Shown here: piece after piece, positions 48,620-58,521 of the stretch
Numbering within the stretch: the stretch's first letter is position 1
How the letters are laid out: the number at the start of each line of letters is the position of its first letter
Made by a program: the position numbers and the translations under genes
Notes under the pieces: model-generated
Seen by the model: only the letters and a program-made list of their open reading frames with translations
What the model was told of the DNA's origin: nothing
The model's database searches: none
Assembly: GCF_002150005.2 (NCBI RefSeq)
Contig: NZ_MSPP01000003.1
Location: 310,001 to 374,000, forward strand
Length of the DNA: 64,000 bases
Direction of reading: 5' to 3'
Origin: Marivivens niveibacter
GTDB lineage: Bacteria > Pseudomonadota > Alphaproteobacteria > Rhodobacterales > Rhodobacteraceae

Positions 48620-49539
48620 TGGTCATGTATAACAAAGTCGCTCTGATCGGTCTGGGCTTGATCGCTGGGTCTATGTCGCTGGCCATGCGCCGTGGCAAAC
48701 TGGCTGGCGAAATCGTCGGCTATGCCCGTAGCCAAGAAACGCGTAACATCGCGCGCGAAATCAATCTGGTTGATCGCGTCTGTGACACCGCAGAAGAGGC
48801 CGTGCAGGACGCCGATCTGATCGTTTTGGCCGTGCCCGTTGGCGCGATGGGCCCCGTGATGGAGGCGATTGCGCCTCATTTGAAAAAGGGCGCTGTTGTC
48901 ACGGATGTTGGGTCGGTCAAACGGTCGGTCTTTGATGCTGTGATCCCTCATATGCCTGACGGTTGCCATTTTATCGGCTGTCACCCGATGGCGGGTACCG
49001 AACATTCTGGGCCGCATTCGGGCTTTGCCACGTTGTTCGATAAACGCTGGTGTCTGGTCGTCCCACCCGAGGACGCGGATCAGGCCGAGGTTGACCGCAT
49101 CTGTGATTTCTGGCGCGGCATTGGCGCGGATATCGAAATCATGGAACCCGATCACCACGATCTGGTCTGTGCCGTCGTATCACACGCGCCGCACTTGATC
49201 GCCTATACGATGGTGGGCGTGGCCGACGATCTGCGCCGCGTGACGGACCAAGAGGTCATTAAATTTTCCGCCGCTGGTTTCCGCGATTTCACGCGTATTG
49301 CCGCGTCGGACCCGACCATGTGGCGGGATGTGTTTTTGACGAACAAAGACGCGACACTGGAAATTCTGGGCCGTTTTACCGAAGAATTATTTGCGCTTCA
49401 GCGGGCAATCCGGACGGGCGATGGTGATACGTTGTTTGACTACTTCACTCGCACTCGTGCGATCCGCCGCGGAATTATCGAAGCAGGTCAGGATACCTCT
49501 GCGCCAGATTTTGGCCGAACGCCGACCAAATCGGAATGA
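48619..49539 (+). CDS. tyrA: Prephenate/arogenate (cyclohexadienyl) dehydrogenase
   Basis: 306 residues. NAD-binding LIGLGLIAGSMSLAMRR (about 9-25), VTDVGSVK, the family signature HPMAGTEHSGP near 122-132 and VVSHAPHLIAYTMV. Oxidative decarboxylation of prephenate or arogenate in tyrosine synthesis. It overlaps hisC at the start and the extensin gene at the stop (ATGA), forming a three-gene operon. Confidence 0.94.
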   Translation: MVMYNKVALIGLGLIAGSMSLAMRRGKLAGEIVGYARSQETRNIAREINLVDRVCDTAEEAVQDADLIVLAVPVGAMGPVMEAIAPHLKKGAVVTDVGSVKRSVFDAVIPHMPDGCHFIGCHPMAGTEHSGPHSGFATLFDKRWCLVVPPEDADQAEVDRICDFWRGIGADIEIMEPDHHDLVCAVVSHAPHLIAYTMVGVADDLRRVTDQEVIKFSAAGFRDFTRIAASDPTMWRDVFLTNKDATLEILGRFTEELFALQRAIRTGDGDTLFDYFTRTRAIRRGIIEAGQDTSAPDFGRTPTKSE

Positions 49540-50354
49540 TCAGAGCGGGGGCGCTGATCTGTATCGCTTTATGGGCTGGTGTCGCGAGCGCCGAAGCACC
49601 CATTAATGCGCCAGCGCCGCCGGTACGTCCGACGATTGCCCCAGATACGCTGCCCCGCCCATTGGCGCGGCCTGATGGGTTGATCCCAGCGCCATCAACG
49701 CCAGAAACAGATTTGGCGCGTGAAGCAATGGCTACTCCAGCCAGCCAATACGCGGTTCAGACATCCACCCCACCAATCGCGCGAACGGGGCGTGTCGAAC
49801 GCCGTGCGGCAGAAATAATCGCGGCCCGCGCCCGTGGAATGGTGTGCAGTGACCCCGATATTCAGGGGGAGTATATCGCGCCCATTAACGGGGCAGGGGC
49901 ATGCGGTGTTGATCAACCTGTTCGGTTAAGATCGGTAATGGGGATCACATTTAACGACCGGCCCACCATCGATTGCCCCACGGCAATTGCACTGAAAAAC
50001 TGGCTATCGCGTAGCGCAATCCCTGTCATCGGCAGCGAAGGCGGCGGGTTAGAGCGGTTGAACCTGATGGGCCATTACTCCTGTCGCAATCGCAATGGCG
50101 CGGCTTCGGGGCGTTTATCTGAACATGCCTTTGGACGCGCTATTGATATCGGCAGTTTTCGATTGCGCGATGGTAGTGAAATATCCGTTCTAAATGATTG
50201 GGGCACCCGTGCGAATGGTCGCCAGTTGCGCGAAATGCACCGCGGAGCCTGCGGTATCTTTGGTACCGTTTTGGGACCCGAGGCAAATGCCGCACATCGT
50301 AATCATTTCCATTTCGATACCGCCCGGTATCGCAGCGGCAGCTATTGCCGTTAA
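49536..50354 (+). CDS. Extensin-like C-terminal domain protein, exported M15-like peptidase fold
   Basis: 272 residues. Signal peptide (1-19), then a Pro-rich spacer (about 22-65: APAPPVRPTIAP), then the extensin_2 domain with CSDPDIQGEY, HYSCRNRNGAASGRLSEHAFGRAID and HRNHFHFD. The H/D residues in SEHAFGRAIDIG and NHFHFD form a zinc site of the peptidase M15 (D,D-carboxypeptidase/VanX-like) type. Probably acts on peptidoglycan. Translationally coupled to tyrA; end shares TTAA with the DUF2125 gene. Confidence 0.82.
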   Translation: MIRAGALICIALWAGVASAEAPINAPAPPVRPTIAPDTLPRPLARPDGLIPAPSTPETDLAREAMATPASQYAVQTSTPPIARTGRVERRAAEIIAARARGMVCSDPDIQGEYIAPINGAGACGVDQPVRLRSVMGITFNDRPTIDCPTAIALKNWLSRSAIPVIGSEGGGLERLNLMGHYSCRNRNGAASGRLSEHAFGRAIDIGSFRLRDGSEISVLNDWGTRANGRQLREMHRGACGIFGTVLGPEANAAHRNHFHFDTARYRSGSYCR

Positions 50355-51274
50355 CGCAGGCGCGGGGCGGGGCCCAAAGGGAAAGGCCCCAGTTTGATTT
50401 GTCCATCTGCAAAGATCAGGGGCAGGTTCACCCGTCCGTTTTCGTCGGCCAAACCGCCAATCATCGCGCTGTATCCGAACACCGTGCCGCGATCGATCAC
50501 CCCAGCGTCGGCCATCAATTGAACCAGCATCTGCCAACCGCTCGCGGATAGATCCAACCGTCCCGTTGGAATGCCAAAGGCGTCGATCGCCAGATCACCA
50601 TTTACGGTCACATCTAATTCGCCCCAATTCATTTGAAGCGGCGCGAATTCTATGGATTGCAGCGGGTTCGGTGCCTGATCTGTAACCGACATCACACGAT
50701 CAAACGTCACCTGTCCGTCGAAATCGATCAGATCGACGTTTCGCAGGATTGGGTCATTTATCATCTGGGCGGGTAACTGAATTTTGGTTCCCGATACTGA
50801 CAATGTATATGTCGGCAGGTCGGCGGCCTGCATATCAACCGTCAAAGACCCAATCGCCCCCTCAAACGTGCCAGACACAACAGCGTTTTCGATTACCCCG
50901 CTGACCGAGGCAATTTCGGCGTTCGGATTGTATCGAAACCCAACGTCGATCCACAGTTCATCGGCGATTTGGGTTATGCCGCCAAATGAAACGGCGCCGT
51001 CGATTTTTGCACGAACATGATTGGGGGCCAGAAGAGGGGTCGAAATCTGAATGTTTTCGATGCTGCCGCCTTGGCGGAATGCTAGGTCCGCGGCATCCGA
51101 ACCCACACGCAACGGGTTCATCATCCAGTGGGGGCCATCATAGTTCGTGACCTGACCGTTGGCCGTTAAATCGATCAGAACCGAGGTCGCCAATTTGGAA
51201 TAGCCGAAGCTGCCCAGACCCCAAACCGTTGCATAGGCAATACCAAGTCCGACCACCCAACGACGTGCACCCAT
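50351..51274 (-). CDS. DUF2125 family protein
   Basis: 307 residues. One N-terminal membrane segment (about 7-26, signal-anchor) and a large exterior beta-rich domain with no catalytic residues visible. DUF2125 is an alphaproteobacterial envelope family of unknown function; some members resemble AsmA-type lipid-transfer proteins in their repetitive beta content. The start at 51274 is chosen because AAGGGG lies seven bases before it; a GTG is present five codons upstream. Confidence 0.75.
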   Translation of the reverse strand: MGARRWVVGLGIAYATVWGLGSFGYSKLATSVLIDLTANGQVTNYDGPHWMMNPLRVGSDAADLAFRQGGSIENIQISTPLLAPNHVRAKIDGAVSFGGITQIADELWIDVGFRYNPNAEIASVSGVIENAVVSGTFEGAIGSLTVDMQAADLPTYTLSVSGTKIQLPAQMINDPILRNVDLIDFDGQVTFDRVMSVTDQAPNPLQSIEFAPLQMNWGELDVTVNGDLAIDAFGIPTGRLDLSASGWQMLVQLMADAGVIDRGTVFGYSAMIGGLADENGRVNLPLIFADGQIKLGPFPLGPAPRLR

Positions 51275-51320
51275 TTTCGGCCCCTTCACCTTTATTCCGA
51301 AACTGTTTAACCAATGAAAT

Positions 51321-51869
51321 ATGGACGCAAAAGAACAATCACCGCTGTGGGTCTTTGGCTACGGATCACTTTTGTGGAATCCGGGGTTTGAACCTGTTGA
51401 ATCTGTCCCTGCAACCATGCCCGATTTTCATCGGTCGTTCTGTATGCTGTCGATCCATCATCGCGGTACTGTTGAACACCCAGGATTGGTTTTGGCGCTG
51501 GACGCGCAAGCGGGCGCACAATGCACCGGTATCGCATTTCGCGTGGCTGATAGCGATCGCGATCAAGTCATCGCGGATTTACGCGAACGCGAATTGGTTT
51601 CCTCGGCTTATCTGGAACGTGTGCTGCCGCTGACGTTGCGCGATGGGCGGGCTGTGAATGCACTGACCTACATTATTGATCCCGCGCATGAACAATATTG
51701 CCATTTTTCATTGGAAACACAGGCGCAAATGATCGCCTCGGCAGTTGGCGGTCGCGGGCCGAATACCGAATATCTGGAACGTACTGCACTGCATTTGATC
51801 GAAATGGGTATTAAAGACCCCGATATGGAATGGCTCCTGTCCAGAGTAAGACTATTGTGTACCCAATAG
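51321..51869 (+). CDS. ChaC-like gamma-glutamylcyclotransferase
   Basis: 182 residues. The substrate-binding loop VFGYGSLLWNPGF is at 11-23, and the catalytic Glu is in LRERELVSSAYLERV near 90-92. Family members release 5-oxoproline and Cys-Gly from glutathione. No link to neighbouring genes is apparent. Confidence 0.9.
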   Translation: MDAKEQSPLWVFGYGSLLWNPGFEPVESVPATMPDFHRSFCMLSIHHRGTVEHPGLVLALDAQAGAQCTGIAFRVADSDRDQVIADLRERELVSSAYLERVLPLTLRDGRAVNALTYIIDPAHEQYCHFSLETQAQMIASAVGGRGPNTEYLERTALHLIEMGIKDPDMEWLLSRVRLLCTQ

Positions 51870-51945
51870 GGGCATAATTCATTTGCGCACCGCCCCTAGG
51901 GCTGTAATGGTTATAGGGATTGAATAAAGACGAGGAACCCAACCC

Positions 51946-53079
51946 GTGGTGGACATCAGGGAACCCGAGGCCGAGCCATATTTTTCGCAACCGACACGCC
52001 AGATCACCTTTATGATGATCGCGCTGGGTTTGATTGGCGCAGGCATCTATTTTGCGTTTTCGACGCTTGAATCCATTTTCCTGTCGAACCCTTATCTAAA
52101 CGGTTTGATCCTGACGGTCTTTGTGATCGGTGTTGTGTCTTGTTTCGGGCAGGTGGTTCAGCTGGTTCGGTCTGTTGGCTGGATCAAAAAATTCGCGCGT
52201 GATCTGGATGTACAGGGCGCGCCTGTGTTGCTTGCGCCGTTGGCGACTTTGTTGCGGTCACGCGGGGCGCGGATGCAAATCTCTAGCACCTCGGCGCGGT
52301 CCATTTTGGATTCGGTTGCCAGCCGCATCGACGAAGATCGCGAAATCACCAAATATCTAGGCAATACGCTGATCTTTTTGGGATTGCTGGGTACGTTCTA
52401 TGGTCTTGCGACGACCGTTCCTGCGCTGGTCGACACAATCCGCAGTCTGAACGCCGACGAAGGTGCATCAGGCGCGGATGTTTTTGCCAAATTGCAGGTC
52501 GGATTAGAAAGCCAGCTGGGCGGCATGGGCACCGCGTTTTCGTCGTCATTGCTGGGTCTGGCGGGATCGCTGATCGTTGGTCTGCTAGAGCTATTTGCCG
52601 GCCACGGCCAAAACCGTTTTTATCGCGAATTGGAAGAATGGTTATCGTCGATCACGCGGCTTGGTTTCGCTGCTGGCGACGAAGGCGGGATGGAGTTTGT
52701 CGGTGGCGGATCTAATGACCAATTGGTCGCCTTGATCCGCGCATCAGAAGAAGGCCGTTTGCGCACCGACGAACAAATCGCCCAACTCAGCGCGACTGTC
52801 TCGCAACTGGCGGCGCGGATGGATGATCAGGATATCAGGCCCGCTTTGGCGCAGGCCGCCGCCGCACAACAAGAAATGGCACAAAAACTGGCCGAAAGCG
52901 GCGTTGACGGGATCGATGCCGAAAGCCGTATGCGTCTGCGTTCGATAGACGTCCAGCTGCTGCGTATCCTAGAGGAGCTATCGGCAGGCCGTCAGGAAAC
53001 GATCACCGAATTGCGCGGCGAATTGGGCAACATCAGTCGTGCCCTGCGTCAGATGAAACGCAATCCGGGGCAGGAGTGA
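51946..53079 (+). CDS. MotA/TolQ/ExbB-like proton-channel subunit
   Basis: 377 residues, GTG start with GAGGAA 8 bases upstream. Four predicted transmembrane helices (about 21-40, 49-70, 140-163, 188-210); NTLIFLGLLGTFYGLATTVPALV and GMGTAFSSSLLGLAGSLIVGLLE are the TM3/TM4 pair that lines the ion channel in MotA/ExbB proteins. The cytoplasmic C-tail (about 240-377) is helical. It is the A subunit of a stator-type motor, coupled to the OmpA-domain gene three bases downstream. It is not close to motA by context: no flagellar genes are nearby. Confidence 0.8.
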   Translation: MVDIREPEAEPYFSQPTRQITFMMIALGLIGAGIYFAFSTLESIFLSNPYLNGLILTVFVIGVVSCFGQVVQLVRSVGWIKKFARDLDVQGAPVLLAPLATLLRSRGARMQISSTSARSILDSVASRIDEDREITKYLGNTLIFLGLLGTFYGLATTVPALVDTIRSLNADEGASGADVFAKLQVGLESQLGGMGTAFSSSLLGLAGSLIVGLLELFAGHGQNRFYRELEEWLSSITRLGFAAGDEGGMEFVGGGSNDQLVALIRASEEGRLRTDEQIAQLSATVSQLAARMDDQDIRPALAQAAAAQQEMAQKLAESGVDGIDAESRMRLRSIDVQLLRILEELSAGRQETITELRGELGNISRALRQMKRNPGQE

Positions 53080-53082
53080 TCC

Positions 53083-55242
53083 ATGGCGATCTCTCGCCGC
53101 AGTACGAATAGGTTCAACGCGTCGATCTGGCCCGGTTTTGTGGATGCCATGACGGGGCTGTTGCTTGTTCTGATGTTTGTACTGACCATTTTCATGGTCT
53201 TACAATTTGTGCTGCGCGAAAAAATCGAAGGCCAAGAGGACCGTTTAAACGAACTGACAGCTGAAGTGTCGACGCTTGCGCAAGCATTGGGATTAGAACA
53301 GGCGCGATCATCTCAGCTAGCTGGGCAAGTCGGGCAGTTGACGACCGATCTGACCGCTGCGAATGACGAACGGTCTGCGCAAGCCGCATTGATTGCCCGC
53401 CTGACACAAGAACGCGACGCGAATGCCGCCGCGTTGGTCGAGGCGCAGAACCGCATCACAGGGTTCGAAGCACAGGTAGCGGGATTGTTGTCGGATCGTT
53501 CTGATTTGCGAAGCCAAGTCGCCGATCTGGAAAATACTCGTGACACATTGATTTCGGAACAAGAGGCGCTGAACCTTGCGTTGGCCCAAGCGCGCGATGA
53601 AATCGATACCGCCGCCGAACAGGCGCGTTTAGCTGCCGCGCGGCGCGAAGCGTTAGAGGCGATGATCGCCGAGTTAGAGACCGATAAATCGGATGCTCTT
53701 GCCTCTGTCGATGCATTAGAGGCGCAGCAATTGGTTGATGCTGCTGCATTGGACAGCTTGCGCGAACGTTTGGCTAATGCGGATTCCGAAATCACCGCAA
53801 TGACACTGGCGCTGGAACAACAACGCCGCCGCGCCGAAGATACGCTGACGTTGCTTGCTGCGGCAGAGGCGGCGCGTGACGATCTGGATATGCGGTTGGC
53901 TGCGGCTTTGCTGGCGAAAACCGAGCTGGAAAATGATCTAACCAGCGCGCTGAGCAACGGCCAAGATTTGGATGCACGTTTGCTGGCCGCGTTGGATTTG
54001 CAGCGCACCACCAATGCAGACCTTGCCGCCGCGCAAGAAGCTTTGGCTGCCGCCGAAGCCTCTAATCAGGATTTGACCACCCGCTTGGCTGCCGCCATAG
54101 CCGCGCAAGAACTGGCAGAAGGCGATTTGGACGCGGCACAACAGGCATTAGAGCAAGCACTGGCTGACGGCGATGCGGCGCAATCCGAAATTCAGGAACA
54201 ATTGGCGGCGGCGCTGCTCGCGAAACAAGCAGCCGAGGCTGAATTGCAGGCCGCGCAAAGTGCGGGCGCAGCTGCGAATGCTGCGCGGTTGACTCTAGAG
54301 GAACGGTTGGCCGAGGCGTTGATTGCCCGTCAGGCGTTGGAACAACAGGTCCAGTCGCTGTCGGAAAATCGCAGTGAAACCGAAACTGAACGTGCCAGCC
54401 TAGAGGCGCGACTGGCCGAAGCGTTAGCCGCCCAAGCCGCGGCGCAGGCGAATTTGACCGAGCAGATGACCGAAGCCGAACGACAAGCGGCGTTGTTGGC
54501 AACGGCAAATGCGGCGCTGGCCGAAGAAGAAGCGCTATCAGCAGAAAGCCAGCGACAGATTGCGGCCCTGAATGAGAATGTTGCCGAATTGCGTGCGCAG
54601 GTCAGCCAATTGCAAAACCTTCTGAACTTAGCTGAAATCGCGGATAGCGATGCGCAGGTCCAAATATCTAATCTGTCGTCGCAGTTGAATCAGGCGCTGG
54701 CGCGCGCTGCCGCAGAAAGTCGTCGCCGCCTAGAGCTGGAAGAAGCAGAGCGCGCGCGTTTAGAAGCCGAAGCGCAAAATTTGGCGCGGTATCGTTCTGA
54801 ATTCTTTGGCGAACTGCGCAGTATTCTAGAAGGCCAACAAGGCGTTCGTATCGAAGGCGACCGTTTCGTATTTTCGTCCGAGGTTTTGTTTGCCCCTGGC
54901 AGTGCGACCCTATCGGCCCAAGGCCAGCAAGAGATTGCCAAGGTCGCCGATATTTTGCGCCAAGTGTCCGATAGCATTCCCGAAAATATCGATTGGATCA
55001 TCCGCGTCGATGGTCATACCGATAATCTGCCGCTGTCGGGGCAGGGGCAGTTTGCAGATAACTGGGAACTGTCGCAGGCGCGGGCGCTGTCAGTGGTGCG
55101 TTATATGTCCGAAGCCCAAGGCATCGCGCCAAACCGTTTGTCGGCAAACGGGTTCGGTGAATATCAGCCTGTGAATACAGATGACACGCCAGCCGCACGC
55201 GCCCAAAACCGCCGGATCGAGCTAAAGCTTACTGAACGGTGA
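53083..55242 (+). CDS. MotB/OmpA-like protein with giant coiled coil
   Basis: 719 residues: short basic N-tail, one transmembrane helix (about 16-42) with a polar Asp21 in PGFVDAMTGLLLVLMF, the usual proton-carrying Asp of MotB/ExbD B subunits. Then a predicted coiled coil of about 520 residues (47-570) very rich in Ala, Glu, Gln and Leu, and a C-terminal OmpA peptidoglycan-binding domain (about 590-719) with DGHTD and NRRIELKL. The coil could span a long distance, roughly 70-80 nm if fully extended. No flagellar or Tol genes nearby; cargo unknown. Confidence 0.8.
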   Translation: MAISRRSTNRFNASIWPGFVDAMTGLLLVLMFVLTIFMVLQFVLREKIEGQEDRLNELTAEVSTLAQALGLEQARSSQLAGQVGQLTTDLTAANDERSAQAALIARLTQERDANAAALVEAQNRITGFEAQVAGLLSDRSDLRSQVADLENTRDTLISEQEALNLALAQARDEIDTAAEQARLAAARREALEAMIAELETDKSDALASVDALEAQQLVDAAALDSLRERLANADSEITAMTLALEQQRRRAEDTLTLLAAAEAARDDLDMRLAAALLAKTELENDLTSALSNGQDLDARLLAALDLQRTTNADLAAAQEALAAAEASNQDLTTRLAAAIAAQELAEGDLDAAQQALEQALADGDAAQSEIQEQLAAALLAKQAAEAELQAAQSAGAAANAARLTLEERLAEALIARQALEQQVQSLSENRSETETERASLEARLAEALAAQAAAQANLTEQMTEAERQAALLATANAALAEEEALSAESQRQIAALNENVAELRAQVSQLQNLLNLAEIADSDAQVQISNLSSQLNQALARAAAESRRRLELEEAERARLEAEAQNLARYRSEFFGELRSILEGQQGVRIEGDRFVFSSEVLFAPGSATLSAQGQQEIAKVADILRQVSDSIPENIDWIIRVDGHTDNLPLSGQGQFADNWELSQARALSVVRYMSEAQGIAPNRLSANGFGEYQPVNTDDTPAARAQNRRIELKLTER

Positions 55243-56185
55243 TGGTGACTGTCTGGGTGTCGATGACCTGATCGCCCCGCATATGGGTGACGGTTCCAGT
55301 ATAAGTTCCGCCGCTCCAGCCCGTTATGGGGGCACGTTTTCCACCAGCACGGAACCACAGCGCTTGGTCGCGATCTAACACCACTGTGTTCATGAAAATC
55401 GATCCCTCTGGCCCAGTGATGTCGAACGCCATTGTATCGCCCAACAATCCGCCAAAGGCATAGCCCCACAGAACCATGTCCTGAAACGCCGATTGGGTTA
55501 GGCGGTCCGGCATACCCTGTTTAATTTCGTCGTATGCAGGGACGTTTGGTGCGAACCCTGATGTAATGATGCCGCCAGCCGATATGGGCGGTACGTCAAT
55601 CCATAGCGTGTCATTACTTGTGCCGCAGGTATTGGCGTTTGGTGCAAAGGGATCAACGACTTCGCCGTCTTTTCGAACCGAAAGGTGAATATGCGGGAAC
55701 TGTGTTTGACCTGACAATCCGACTTGTCCCAACACTTGCCCCATCGCAACGCGGTCGCCGCTGCGAACGGTCACGGATCCTTTGGCCAGATGACAGTACT
55801 GGGTTTCCCAACCGTCCCCATGGCTGATGACCACGCCGTTGCCGCATTCACGACCCGAAACATCAGGTGCTGATGGTCCTGTTTGCAGCACATCATCCAT
55901 GTCATTGCGTACCCCGCGCACAGTACCAGGGGCAGAGGCGATGACGTCTACACCTTGGGCTTGTTGGTTCAACGATGTCAGCGCGAAATCCGTGCCTTTG
56001 TGGGTGTCATAGGTCAGCGTCCCGCAGGTGAAATCGCGAATTCCATCCGTGGTATCCAGATCAACGAACTGCTGGATGTAACAGTCGGTTTCCAGATCGC
56101 AGGCGATTGGCAGTCCCAAAAGAATGTCCCCCGCCATGACAGGCATGGCGAGGGACGAAACTATAGCAGTCGCTAAGACGCGCAT
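55229..56185 (-). CDS. M23 (LytM) peptidoglycan endopeptidase-like protein
   Basis: 318 residues with a signal peptide (1-18). The LytM domain has THKGTDFAL (first His and Asp) and FPHIHLS (HxH), the zinc-binding residues of active M23 peptidases. The C-terminal region (about 185-318) is a separate beta-rich domain of unknown family. The ATG overlaps the clpA stop (TAATG), so it is translated from clpA mRNA. The 3' end overlaps the OmpA gene by 14 bases. Confidence 0.87.
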   Translation of the reverse strand: MRVLATAIVSSLAMPVMAGDILLGLPIACDLETDCYIQQFVDLDTTDGIRDFTCGTLTYDTHKGTDFALTSLNQQAQGVDVIASAPGTVRGVRNDMDDVLQTGPSAPDVSGRECGNGVVISHGDGWETQYCHLAKGSVTVRSGDRVAMGQVLGQVGLSGQTQFPHIHLSVRKDGEVVDPFAPNANTCGTSNDTLWIDVPPISAGGIITSGFAPNVPAYDEIKQGMPDRLTQSAFQDMVLWGYAFGGLLGDTMAFDITGPEGSIFMNTVVLDRDQALWFRAGGKRAPITGWSGGTYTGTVTHMRGDQVIDTQTVTITVQ

Positions 56186-58521
56186 TAATCGGCAGTCAAA
56201 AGCGGTGGTTTGTTGCCGGACAATTTGCCCTGTTCTGGCGGTAGGATTTGAAGATCCAGTTCACCGTCTTTGACAGCCACGCGGACAACGCCGCCTTTGG
56301 TCAATTTGCCAAACAGCAGCTCTTCGGCCAGAGGTTTTTTGATGTGTTCCTGAATGACGCGGCCCAGTGGACGCGCACCCATTTTCGCATCGTACCCTTT
56401 GTCGCCCAGCCATCCTGCGGCTTCGATCGTCAGTTCGATGTGGACGTTGCGGTCCATCAACTGCGCCTCTAGCTGCAGAACAAACTTTTCGACGACCTGT
56501 AGGATCACCTCTTTCGGCAGCGGCTGGAACGGGATGACCGCGTCCAGACGGTTGCGGAATTCCGGCGTAAAGGTGCGTTCGATTGCAGCGGTGTCTTCGC
56601 CTTCGCGGCGATCGCGGCCGAAACCGATGGCTTCTTTTGCTTGCTCTGCTGCGCCTGCGTTGGATGTCATGATTAGGATCACGTTACGGAAATCTGTGGT
56701 CCGGCCGTTGTGGTCGGTCAGTTTGCCGTGGTCCATCACCTGCAACAGAATGTTGTAGACGTCTGGGTGTGCCTTTTCCATTTCATCTAGCAGCAGAACG
56801 CAGTGTGGGTTCTGGTCGATGCTGTCGGTCAACATGCCACCCTGATCGAACCCGACATAGCCCGGGGGGGCACCAATCAGACGCGATACAGCGTGTTTTT
56901 CCATGTATTCGGACATATCGAACCGGATCAGTTCCACGCCCAGCGTATCGGCCAGCTGTTTTGCGACCTCGGTTTTACCGACACCAGTTGGACCTGCGAA
57001 CAGGTAGTTACCGATGGGCTTTTCAGGTTCACGCAGGCCAGCGCGGGCAAGTTTGATCGCCGACGACAGTGCCTCGATCGCGGGGTCCTGACCGAACACA
57101 ACGCGTTTCAGCGACTTTTCCAGATCCTTCAGAGTCTCTGCATCGTCTTTGCTGACGTTTTTCGGCGGGATACGCGCGATTTTCGCAACGACGGCTTCGA
57201 TCTCTTTCACGCCAATGGTTTTGCGGCGGCGGGATTCTGCGACCAGATGCTGTGCGGCGCCGGCTTCGTCGATGACGTCGATGGCTTTGTCCGGCAGTTT
57301 ACGGTCGTTGATGTAACGGGCTGACAGTTCAACCGCCGTTTTGATCGCATCGGCGGTGTAACGGATCGCATGGTGTTCTTCGAAGTAAGGTTTCAAACCT
57401 TGCAGAATTTTCACCGAATCTTCTACAGATGGCTCGTTCACGTCGATTTTCTGGAAACGACGGGACAGCGCGCGATCTTTTTCGAAATGCTGACGGAACT
57501 CTTTATAGGTCGTCGAACCCATGCAGCGCAGTTTTCCGCCCTGCAGGGCAGGTTTCAGCAAGTTGGATGCGTCCATTGCGCCGCCCGATGTCGCGCCCGC
57601 ACCGATTACAGTGTGGATTTCATCGATGAACAGAACGGCGTCTGGGTGGTCTTCTAGTTCAGTTACCACAGCTTTCAGGCGTTCTTCGAAATCGCCGCGG
57701 TAGCGGGTGCCAGCCAGTAGCGCGCCCATATCAAGGCTAAAGATCGTGGTGCCCGACAGCACATCTGGCACTTCGTCATTGACAATTTTGCGTGCCAAAC
57801 CTTCGGCGATCGCGGTTTTACCCACGCCCGGATCACCCACCAGCAGCGGATTGTTTTTGCGGCGGCGACATAGAACTTGGATACAGCGTTCAACTTCGTG
57901 ATCGCGGCCGATCAGCGGATCAACGTCGCCTTTACGCGATTTTTTGTTCAGATCGACACAGTATTTCGCCAGTGCGGATTCGCGGTTTTCGCCGTTGCCT
58001 TCGGGGGATGCGGACGAGGACGAGGAGGATTCATCTTCGTCTTCCGATCCGACCACAGGGCGGCTTTCGCCGAATGCTGGGTCTTTGGCGACGCCATGCG
58101 CGATAAAGTTGACCGCGTCATAACGGGTCATGTCCTGATCTTGCAGGAAGTAGGCGGCGTTGCTTTCGCGTTCGGCAAAGATCGCGACCAAAACGTTCGC
58201 GCCCGTTACTTCGGTGCGGCCAGACGATTGTACGTGGATTGCCGCGCGTTGGATAACACGCTGGAACGCGGCCGTTGGGACAGCTTCGGATCCGTCGACA
58301 TCGGTGACGAGGGTCGATAGGTCCTCTTCGATATAATCTTCAAGGTTCTTACGCAGCTCATCCAGATCCACGGCGCAGGCCTTCATCACGCGGGCTGCGT
58401 CTGGTTCGTCGATCAACGCCAGCAATAGGTGTTCAAGCGTGGCAAGTTCGTGACGGCGTGCATTTGCCAATGCCAGTGCCGCATGGATGGACTGCTCTAG
58501 AGTGGTCGAAAAAGATGGCAC
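56185..58521 (-). CDS. clpA: ATP-dependent Clp protease ATP-binding subunit ClpA
   Basis: 778 residues. Duplicated Clp N-domain (1-150), an acidic Ser-rich linker ([15 protein letters not shown], about 160-180), two AAA+ modules with Walker [10 protein letters not shown] and GPTGVGKTE, and a ClpP-loop (IGF) region. Unfolds substrates for ClpP. The usual clpS neighbour upstream is missing; the intergenic 58522-58703 holds nothing that looks like clpS. Codon use is that of a well-expressed gene. Confidence 0.96.

Follow-up and report, generated by a model that had tools for sequence, protein, structure and literature searches.

Among the described motor-type pairs, ZorA-ZorB of the Zorya phage-defence system combines a MotA-type A subunit bearing a helical tail with a B subunit that carries an Asp-containing helix and an OmpA-type domain, and passages on ZorB name binding residues of this type of wall-binding domain (PMC11890865). 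Flagellar MotA-MotB is likewise an adjacent pair with four hydrophobic segments, an Asp helix and an OmpA-type domain; passages of Puente-Lelievre et al. 2025 (PMC12505986) place the torque-generating region of flagellar A subunits in four or five short helices of the cytoplasmic part. Passages of the same paper describe “generic ion transporters”, non-flagellar A-B pairs in whose B subunits no OmpA homology was discerned. In this work, we analyzed an A-B gene pair in a stretch of 64,000 nucleotides of Marivivens niveibacter (contig NZ_MSPP01000003.1, positions 310,001 to 374,000), hereafter the window, which resembles these systems and, in the fold of A and its Thr/Ser positions, TolQ-TolR and ExbB-ExbD. 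It differs from Zorya in the short tail of A, the very long coiled coil of B and a wide chromosomal distribution, with no Zorya-like gene among its five neighbours; from MotA-MotB in a TM2-TM3 loop of about 60 residues (about 95 in the MotA of its own genome, by eye), in the long coil that separates the membrane helix of B from its wall domain and in showing no clear tie to flagella; from TolQ-TolR and ExbB-ExbD in the OmpA domain and coil of B, in TolA and TonB being absent from the five neighbouring genes by Pfam and in the presence of TolQ- and ExbB-like genes elsewhere in the genome; and from the generic ion transporters, as those passages describe them, in the clear OmpA domain of B.

The family of the window's B was already known (NCBIfam PRK09039.1-1). 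It is included in the PRK09039 entries “peptidoglycan -binding protein” (NF006542-NF006546), whose name points to neither a tested function nor an A partner, and whose model lengths (627, 350, 343, 342 and 343 positions) agree with the coil variation measured here. The term “uncharacterised”, applied to the pair in an earlier note on this DNA, seems to hold for function, no paper treating the pair having been recognized among the matches listed, but not for B as a catalogued protein. What is new is the drift of coil length under a conserved heptad register, the estimate of about 80 nm for a straight rod and the proposal of a gene C as candidate third component.

Table 1 Features of the A-B locus (window coordinates).
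Feature	Position	Strand	Remarks
chaC-like gamma-glutamylcyclotransferase gene	51321..51869	+	just upstream of A
A subunit	51946..53079	+	377 aa, GTG start, four hydrophobic segments, short tail of helices that is presumably cytoplasmic
A helix 114-167 with TM3	52285..52446	+	GLLGTF motif; Thr150 invariant, 64/64 rows
A helix 176-243 with TM4	52471..52674	+	Ser201 invariant, 64/64 rows
A tail	52711..53058	+	predicted helices inside residues 256-371; Asp324 in 59/64 rows
B subunit	53083..55242	+	719 aa, NCBIfam NF006542 (PRK09039.1-1)
Asp21 codon	53143..53145	+	WPGFVDA motif, start of membrane helix
Coiled coil of B	53224..54843	+	residues 48-587, no jump in heptad phase
OmpA-type peptidoglycan-binding domain	54886..55212	+	residues 602-710, PF00691 E=2.8e-21

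Both open reading frames were found where they had been placed before, with 3 nt between the A stop and the B start, and the pair is confirmed as real, beyond chance. Pfam assigned the five neighbouring genes (49536-58521) as extensin-like, DUF2125, ChaC, M23 and ClpA-type. The absence of flagellar, Tol and Ton genes nearby, which the earlier note had asserted, is true of these five; that of defence genes holds for the same five by Pfam, PADLOC having covered A and B alone. Elsewhere, the genome carries TolQ-, MotA/MotB- and two ExbB-like genes, named by reading, as well as FlhA. Nor is the pair a local oddity: it is common in alphaproteobacterial chromosomes, A being present in 251 of the 385 sampled genomes (E <= 1e-3, six of them weaker than 1e-20), among them 14 of the 15 listed from its own family, the Rhodobacteraceae, and some listed at 0.7-0.9 Mb. 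The ZorA-profile alignment over the A region crosses stop codons in G103 and G068, two genomes that are among the smallest. B is the neighbour of A in 36 of 40 class-wide loci chosen by hand (23/23 picked by A, 13/17 picked by B) and in 80/80 named loci, these being the 80 best among 586 confirmed matches; a homologue of the chaC-like gene lies in the flanks of all 60 named loci with full flanks, mostly directly upstream of A. FlhA, taken as a proxy for flagella, occurs in 152 of the 251 genomes with A and in 69 of the 134 without it (odds ratio 1.45, Fisher p=0.10), a weak association or none. The pair has probably been inherited vertically, and its persistence in some reduced genomes, together with the lack of a clear flagellar tie, points to a general envelope task. 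Many alphaproteobacteria possess a conserved motor-type pair additional to Tol-Pal, Ton and the flagellar stators.

The hydrophobic segments of A span residues 18-47, 43-78, about 137-162 and 193-221. The AlphaFold2 model (mean pLDDT 83) places two long helices at 114-167 and 176-243, a loop of about 60 residues with a single separate short helix (94-106) between segments 2 and 3, and a tail of about 130 residues, which agrees with the earlier observation that A lacks the giant cytoplasmic tail of ZorA. Against the PDB, ExbB, TolQ or ZorA chains made up 49 of the 50 Foldseek matches listed for this model, with weak E-values (best 4.1e-3, none <=1e-3 among the matches listed). Model and matches together assign A to the MotA/TolQ/ZorA fold class, all E-values being above 1e-3, and bear out the MotA/ExbB-type TM3-TM4 pair noted previously. 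In the sequence alignment, GLLGT and AFSSSLLGL of A lie over their TolQ, ExbB and MotA counterparts; when the A profile was compared with single sequences by hhalign, the matches were weak (probability 35.5 % for TolQ, 65.9 % for ExbB and 0.5 % for MotA). A falls below every Pfam cut-off, MotA_ExbB included, and PF01618 finds four other genes of the same genome; as this model misses A and neither TolA nor TonB is among the five neighbours, we did not count the pair within TolQR/ExbBD. A PDB sequence search with profile A2 (built from 27 of the 80 named loci, taken at intervals of three, and 36 class-wide A) gave best rows matching the coil-forming tail region only (60 of the 76 listed). From alignment A1, three loci (L024, L026 and L029) were left out for odd lengths or stops.

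As claimed for it, B has one membrane helix with Asp21 (a single hydrophobic segment, residues 13-49) and an OmpA-type domain recognized by PF00691. Asp21, located in IWPGFVDAM, proved conserved in homologues, as it is kept in 49/49 rows of alignment A3, which took 49 of 110 sequences (the window's B plus 109 relatives; 10 of the rows represent class-wide loci and 38 belong to the named set). B thus has the one N-terminal helix with a conserved Asp that characterizes a 5:2 motor. The motif W-P/A-G-aromatic-V-D occurs in 115/115 extracted B proteins, a set itself chosen by a closely similar motif; it is also present in four of five loci that the motif search had missed, the fifth (L180) holding a different OmpA protein. 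Within the OmpA domain, Thr646, Asp647, Asn660, Ser664 and Arg667 are invariant (49/49 rows), and we take positions of this type to be the expected peptidoglycan-binding residues. Scoring 774 bits against a cut-off of 388, the window's B is a member of NF006542, and it reaches 305.1 bits for NF006543 (cut-off 305). The NF006542 cut-off was passed in only 5 of the 385 class genomes, which places the B proteins found across the class outside this particular model. In R. sphaeroides, RSP_1033, which PMC10470522 lists as co-precipitating with DalA and as belonging to the OmpA family, is a candidate for this B.

The coiled coil between helix and wall domain, previously put at about 520 residues, is present and slightly longer, about 540: its large hydrophobic residues recur every 3.505 residues with a spectral power of 36.1 (200 shuffles: mean 4.6, maximum 9.9), and proline is absent from residues 46-590. 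Some windows of 42 residues give a weak heptad signal, and phase coherence is poor in four of the twelve longest relatives (L113 0.38, L099 0.29, L111 0.34, L096 0.45). A straight 540-residue rod would measure about 80 nm, more than an upright position in the periplasm would allow. Because such a coil could not stand radially, and because the C-terminal domain of B is of the peptidoglycan type with invariant residues of wall-binding type, B is most likely attached to the wall, rather than to the outer membrane or S-layer that the earlier note had envisaged. AlphaFold2 modelled B with low confidence (pLDDT 73.6, pTM 0.36) and broke the coil at 203-211, 363-366 and 486-492, which would fit a folded-back rod. 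An antiparallel hairpin was nevertheless not adopted, because the heptad phase continues across all three breaks (segment phases of -128, -153, 159 and 140 degrees, one residue being 103 degrees). In fifteen pairwise alignments, six of ten indels near residues 193-217 are multiples of seven, which would mildly favour a continuous coil.

We consider it probable that A and B form an A5B2 motor that is driven by protons, is anchored on peptidoglycan and serves the growth of the envelope. Its motor class is well supported, and what we observe is the fold class of A, residues of the ion-path and wall-binding types, a register-keeping coil, pairing and wide distribution. In the proposed mechanism, A and B would assemble in the inner membrane into a 5:2-type motor powered by ions, with A5B2 as the expected stoichiometry. 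Protons would pass between TM3/TM4 of A and the single helix of B, by way of Asp21 of B and Thr150/Ser201 of A, and their passage would make the ring of A subunits and the dimer of B rotate relative to each other. The C-terminal domain of B would grip peptidoglycan, while its helix would extend as a parallel coil tethering the motor; in Rhodobacteraceae this coil would have to run along the envelope, bend or fold, rather than spanning the periplasm as a straight rod. The motor would most likely power or sense wall and envelope growth, as chromosomal housekeeping and neither defence nor motility. This role is suggested by domain type, breadth and neighbourhood. The earlier interpretation is, overall, partly supported. 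A less probable reading is that the pair represents a separate further type of 5:2 motor of ancient origin in Alphaproteobacteria. Its axle would be extended as a coiled rod along the wall, up to about 145 nm, and the motor would pull, twist or sense at a wall site distant from its own position; the register of the rod would be kept while its length drifts, and C would be the third part in most lineages other than Rhodobacteraceae.

An unlikely alternative is that A-B acts as a Tol/Ton-type energiser, driving an outer-membrane process through C as a transducer-like protein. In its favor, the gene immediately upstream of A is C in at least 24 of the 36 class-wide loci, and the product of C has an apparent signal peptide, a proline-rich middle and an OmpA-like end with AYA-type residues in place of GHTD (signal peptide and residues by eye); all six C proteins tested passed the PF00691 cut-off. 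C, an exported protein rich in proline whose OmpA domain is degenerate, is a candidate third component of the A-B system. TonB and TolA carry a membrane helix, whereas C has none, by eye, beyond its signal peptide. Furthermore, gene C was not seen at the window's locus, nor was it found in the same genome with one C protein as query. A profile of 24 C proteins gave four matches with E <= 1 there, the best two being a 231-aa OmpA-domain ORF (2.4e-10) and the presumed Pal (8.1e-6), which we read as generic OmpA-domain matches and not as gene C. A Sel1 gene was not equated with S. meliloti RgsF, their likeness being by description only, and an RgsC-like M15 peptidase was not found in nine loci searched with one motif; the passages on the S. 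meliloti Rgs wall-growth network in PMC7327166 do not name A, B or C.

That the pair is a static tether, fastening inner membrane and wall together with no movement powered by ions, is improbable: the long rod and wall-binding-type domain would suit it, but the invariant Asp21 of B and Thr150/Ser201 of A are the kind of residue that an ion path needs, and a MotA-type A stands beside B in nearly all the loci described above. A Zorya-type phage-defence motor is very improbable, even though A appears, by sequence, nearest to ZorA among the compared families. ZorA1 is the best defence-profile match of A (E 6.7e-10) and picks up the A family across the class, in the tree that family groups with two ZorA-like rows and is separated from MotA/TolQ/ExbB (95/90, on very long branches), and B matches ZorB profiles (best 9.9e-25) through its OmpA domain. 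Against this, A scores 20 bits for the one NCBIfam ZorA model listed (NF033917; cut-off 500), its tail is short, ZorC/ZorD or ZorE are absent from the five neighbours by Pfam, and the distribution is wide and block-conserved; Zorya membership was rejected on these grounds. An extra flagellar stator is the least probable of these readings, since, despite four hydrophobic segments, a MotB-like B and FlhA in the same genome, 99 of the 251 genomes with A lack FlhA, the short TM2-TM3 loop holds one helix and not the four or five of a torque-generating region, and the genome already has a MotA-MotB-like pair. The pair therefore fails the tests made for TolQR, MotAB and Zorya alike, and the conserved Asp21, with these failed tests, speaks for the stator-type pair outside the known families that the earlier note had proposed.

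The great length of the coil, whose conservation had been put forward for checking, turned out to be a loose trait. Relatives have coils of about 125 to 978 residues, and when close relatives are compared, 104 of the 135 indels in the coil have lengths divisible by seven; the register is thus kept while the length drifts. This seven-residue drift offers a natural series for discerning force transmission, distance-setting or mere tethering. Tandem repeats at the DNA level were discarded as the cause of coil growth, as TRF detected in the B gene a single array, two copies of 10 bp; a 21-bp slippage or recombination bias in a heptad-encoding gene could help explain the multiples of seven.

Both open reading frames proposed in the earlier note are present, A encoding 377 aa and B, 3 nt downstream, 719 aa. 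The layout claimed for B is borne out as well, with a single hydrophobic segment carrying Asp21 within IWPGFVDAM, an OmpA domain, and between them a long coil of about 540 residues (some 520 had been claimed) with heptad-type hydrophobic periodicity. The pair is best read as a wall-tethered, proton-driven A5B2 motor serving envelope growth or upkeep; its motor class rests on tested features, and we infer its cellular job. An M23 peptidase gene overlaps the 3' end of B by 14 bp, tail to tail.

Coordinates of genes and domains in the window and at sampled homologous loci (L numbers)
Feature	Position	Remarks
A gene	51946-53079 (+)	window
B gene	53083-55242 (+)	window
OmpA domain of B	residues 602-710	Pfam
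M23 peptidase gene, overlap with B	55229-55242 (minus strand)	window
C gene	L170:7124-8008	alignment A4
C gene	L154:7080-8042	alignment A4
C gene		22 further class-wide loci; alignment A4
Sel1-repeat protein gene	L167:4229-5332	class-wide locus
Sel1-repeat protein gene	L170:4270-5310	class-wide locus
Sel1-repeat protein gene	L228:6018-7205	further locus
Sel1-repeat protein gene		L230, further locus
Sel1-repeat protein gene		L233, further locus
Short A gene	L234:8123-8851	
Short A gene	L235:8763-9491	
B-like ORF, then A	L238:7111-9633	reversed order
ZorA-like gene	L195:699-3611	
ZorA-like gene	L194:1405-2775	

No Pfam family matched A above its cut-off, and a PF01618 search of its own genome returned four other genes, A not among them, which we judged from their sequences to be TolQ (with a presumed Pal, an OmpA-domain ORF, nearby), MotA (accompanied by a MotB-like ORF at locus L012) and two ExbB. 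A has four hydrophobic segments, and its AF2 model (64-row alignment, mean pLDDT 83) places TM3 and TM4 in long helices at residues 114-167 and 176-243, with a helical tail beyond them, within residues 256-371. ExbB, TolQ or ZorA chains made up 49 of the 50 Foldseek rows shown for this model, the best E being 4.1e-3 and no row reaching 1e-3. Thr150 and Ser201, unchanged in 64 of 64 alignment rows, line up in sequence with Thr residues in TolQ, ExbB and MotA; in known motors, such Thr/Ser positions form the lining of the ion path. A small tree joined the A family to two ZorA-like proteins, away from MotA/TolQ/ExbB (support 95/90), a grouping made unsure by very long branches. The best defence profile for A was ZorA1 (PADLOC, E 6.7e-10), and the NCBIfam ZorA model gave it 20 bits, the cut-off being 500. 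For Zorya we drew on the accessible text of PMC11890865. ZorA-like proteins are also encoded at two loci of other alphaproteobacteria, L194 and L195, and behind the L195 gene comes an ORF, truncated where the locus ends, which by eye looks ZorB-like with a coil of its own.

Within the Alphaproteobacteria, A was found in 251 of 385 sampled genomes (E <= 1e-3), some of only 0.7-0.9 Mb, and 6 of the 251 matches were weaker than 1e-20. The phylum-wide sample yielded A in 64 of 299 genomes (E <= 1e-10), five of them outside the class, and in 14 of the 15 Rhodobacteraceae genomes listed. Those listed without A include genomes of 2.5-4.6 Mb from two families of the class, nine from f13 and three from f63, and one f13 genome shows only a weak match; this pattern suggests loss or absence by lineage. 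Loci were compared in a named set, the 80 best out of 586 confirmed matches, labelled mostly with Rhodobacteraceae genera and in a few cases as Rhodobacterales, Alphaproteobacteria or Sphingomonadales bins, and in a class-wide set of 40 hand-picked alphaproteobacterial loci, 23 chosen via strong A matches and 17 via B matches. B adjoins A in 80 of those best 80 named loci and in 36 of the 40 class-wide ones (23/23 picked by A, 13/17 by B); one non-adjacent case, L180, was picked up through a different OmpA protein, and the other three have B and no recognised A close by. At L234 and L235, from two genomes of one genus outside the class, A is just 243 aa, thus without the tail, and B is still adjacent; at L238 a B-like ORF of 255 aa precedes an A of 563 aa, beside efp.

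The architecture is assembled from known parts, and motors of this type come in more than five known kinds. The pair had been called uncharacterised, which seems to stand for its function and fails for B itself, already catalogued under a name that carries no tested function, PRK09039.1-1 (NCBIfam NF006542; 774 bits, with the cut-off at 388). Since that cut-off is reached in only 5 of 385 class genomes, the class-wide B proteins belong in sister models, if in any. Conservation had been asked about for both Asp21 and the length of B: the residue is conserved, being unchanged, like Thr646, Asp647, Asn660, Ser664 and Arg667, in 49 of 49 rows of the B alignment A3, among them 10 relatives from class-wide loci and 38 from the named set, and the length is not, the 76 complete proteins of the named set measuring 472-1157 aa and the 35 class-wide ones 302-676 aa. 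In the accessible text of a 2025 survey of MotAB relatives, OmpA homology was not discerned in non-flagellar B subunits (PMC12505986), to which the present family, with its OmpA domain, is an exception. We also drew on accessible parts of PMC10470522, PMC12204202, PMC10787603 and PMC8508746; no published work on the pair was recognised among the matches listed, with bioRxiv and most subscription journals outside coverage.

Large hydrophobic residues in the coil recur with a period of 3.505 residues, at a power of 36.1 where 200 shuffles averaged 4.6 and peaked at 9.9, and residues 46-590 hold no proline. Estimated coil lengths are 284-978 residues in the named set plus the window (median 470, n=77) and 125-472 class-wide (median 223, n=35). 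In 89 non-independent pairs of named relatives, each sharing at least 68 % identity over the aligned parts, 104 of 135 counted coil indels were multiples of seven residues, 1 in 7 being expected, or 90 of 118 after crude de-duplication; 14 of the 25 other indels of at least 4 residues left a remainder of 4, a shift typical of coiled-coil stutters. Along the window's coil the heptad phase shifts gradually, by at most about 31 degrees from one 42-residue segment to the next, some with weak signal. Median phase coherence was 0.88 (n=77) and 0.96 (n=35, class-wide), against a mean baseline from 300 shuffles of the window's coil of 0.30 (maximum 0.71); coherence was poor in four of the twelve longest coils, which may contain genuine breaks. 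At the coiled-coil rise of 0.1485 nm per residue, 540 residues would form a straight rod of 80 nm and 978 one of about 145 nm; as the periplasm is roughly 20-30 nm wide, an 80-nm rod cannot stand straight across it. In the AF2 model of B the helix is interrupted at three sites, with low confidence, and the coil may be a rod lying along the wall or a folded bundle.

A chaC homologue flanks A-B in 60 of 60 named loci with full flanks, mostly immediately 5' of A. Class-wide loci contain suhB (35/40), efp (30/40), gap (22/40) and thiE (20/40), nearly always 5' of A-B on the same strand. FlhA, present in 152 of 251 genomes with A and 69 of 134 without, showed no significant association with it (odds ratio 1.45, Fisher p=0.10, 385 class genomes). 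Directly 5' of A in at least 24 of the 36 class-wide loci with A (partly by eye) lies a gene for an apparently exported protein, C, with a short, conserved N-terminal V-x-V-N-x-x-A-L-D motif, a proline-rich linker and an OmpA-like domain at the C-terminus that lacks GHTD; 6 of 6 C proteins checked passed the PF00691 cut-off, and the others among 34 upstream ORFs picked were suhB-like or apparent wrong frames. C is a candidate third component of the system, missing at the window's locus, where chaC takes its place.

Between thiE and efp, 5' of A-B, 2 of 40 class-wide loci and 3 of 11 further loci encode a Sel1-repeat protein, for which Pfam counts 6 and 5 repeats in two checked. Compared by description only, from the accessible part of PMC7327166, it resembles RgsF of the Sinorhizobium meliloti Rgs wall-growth network, and as a candidate RgsF counterpart its gene may offer a functional lead.
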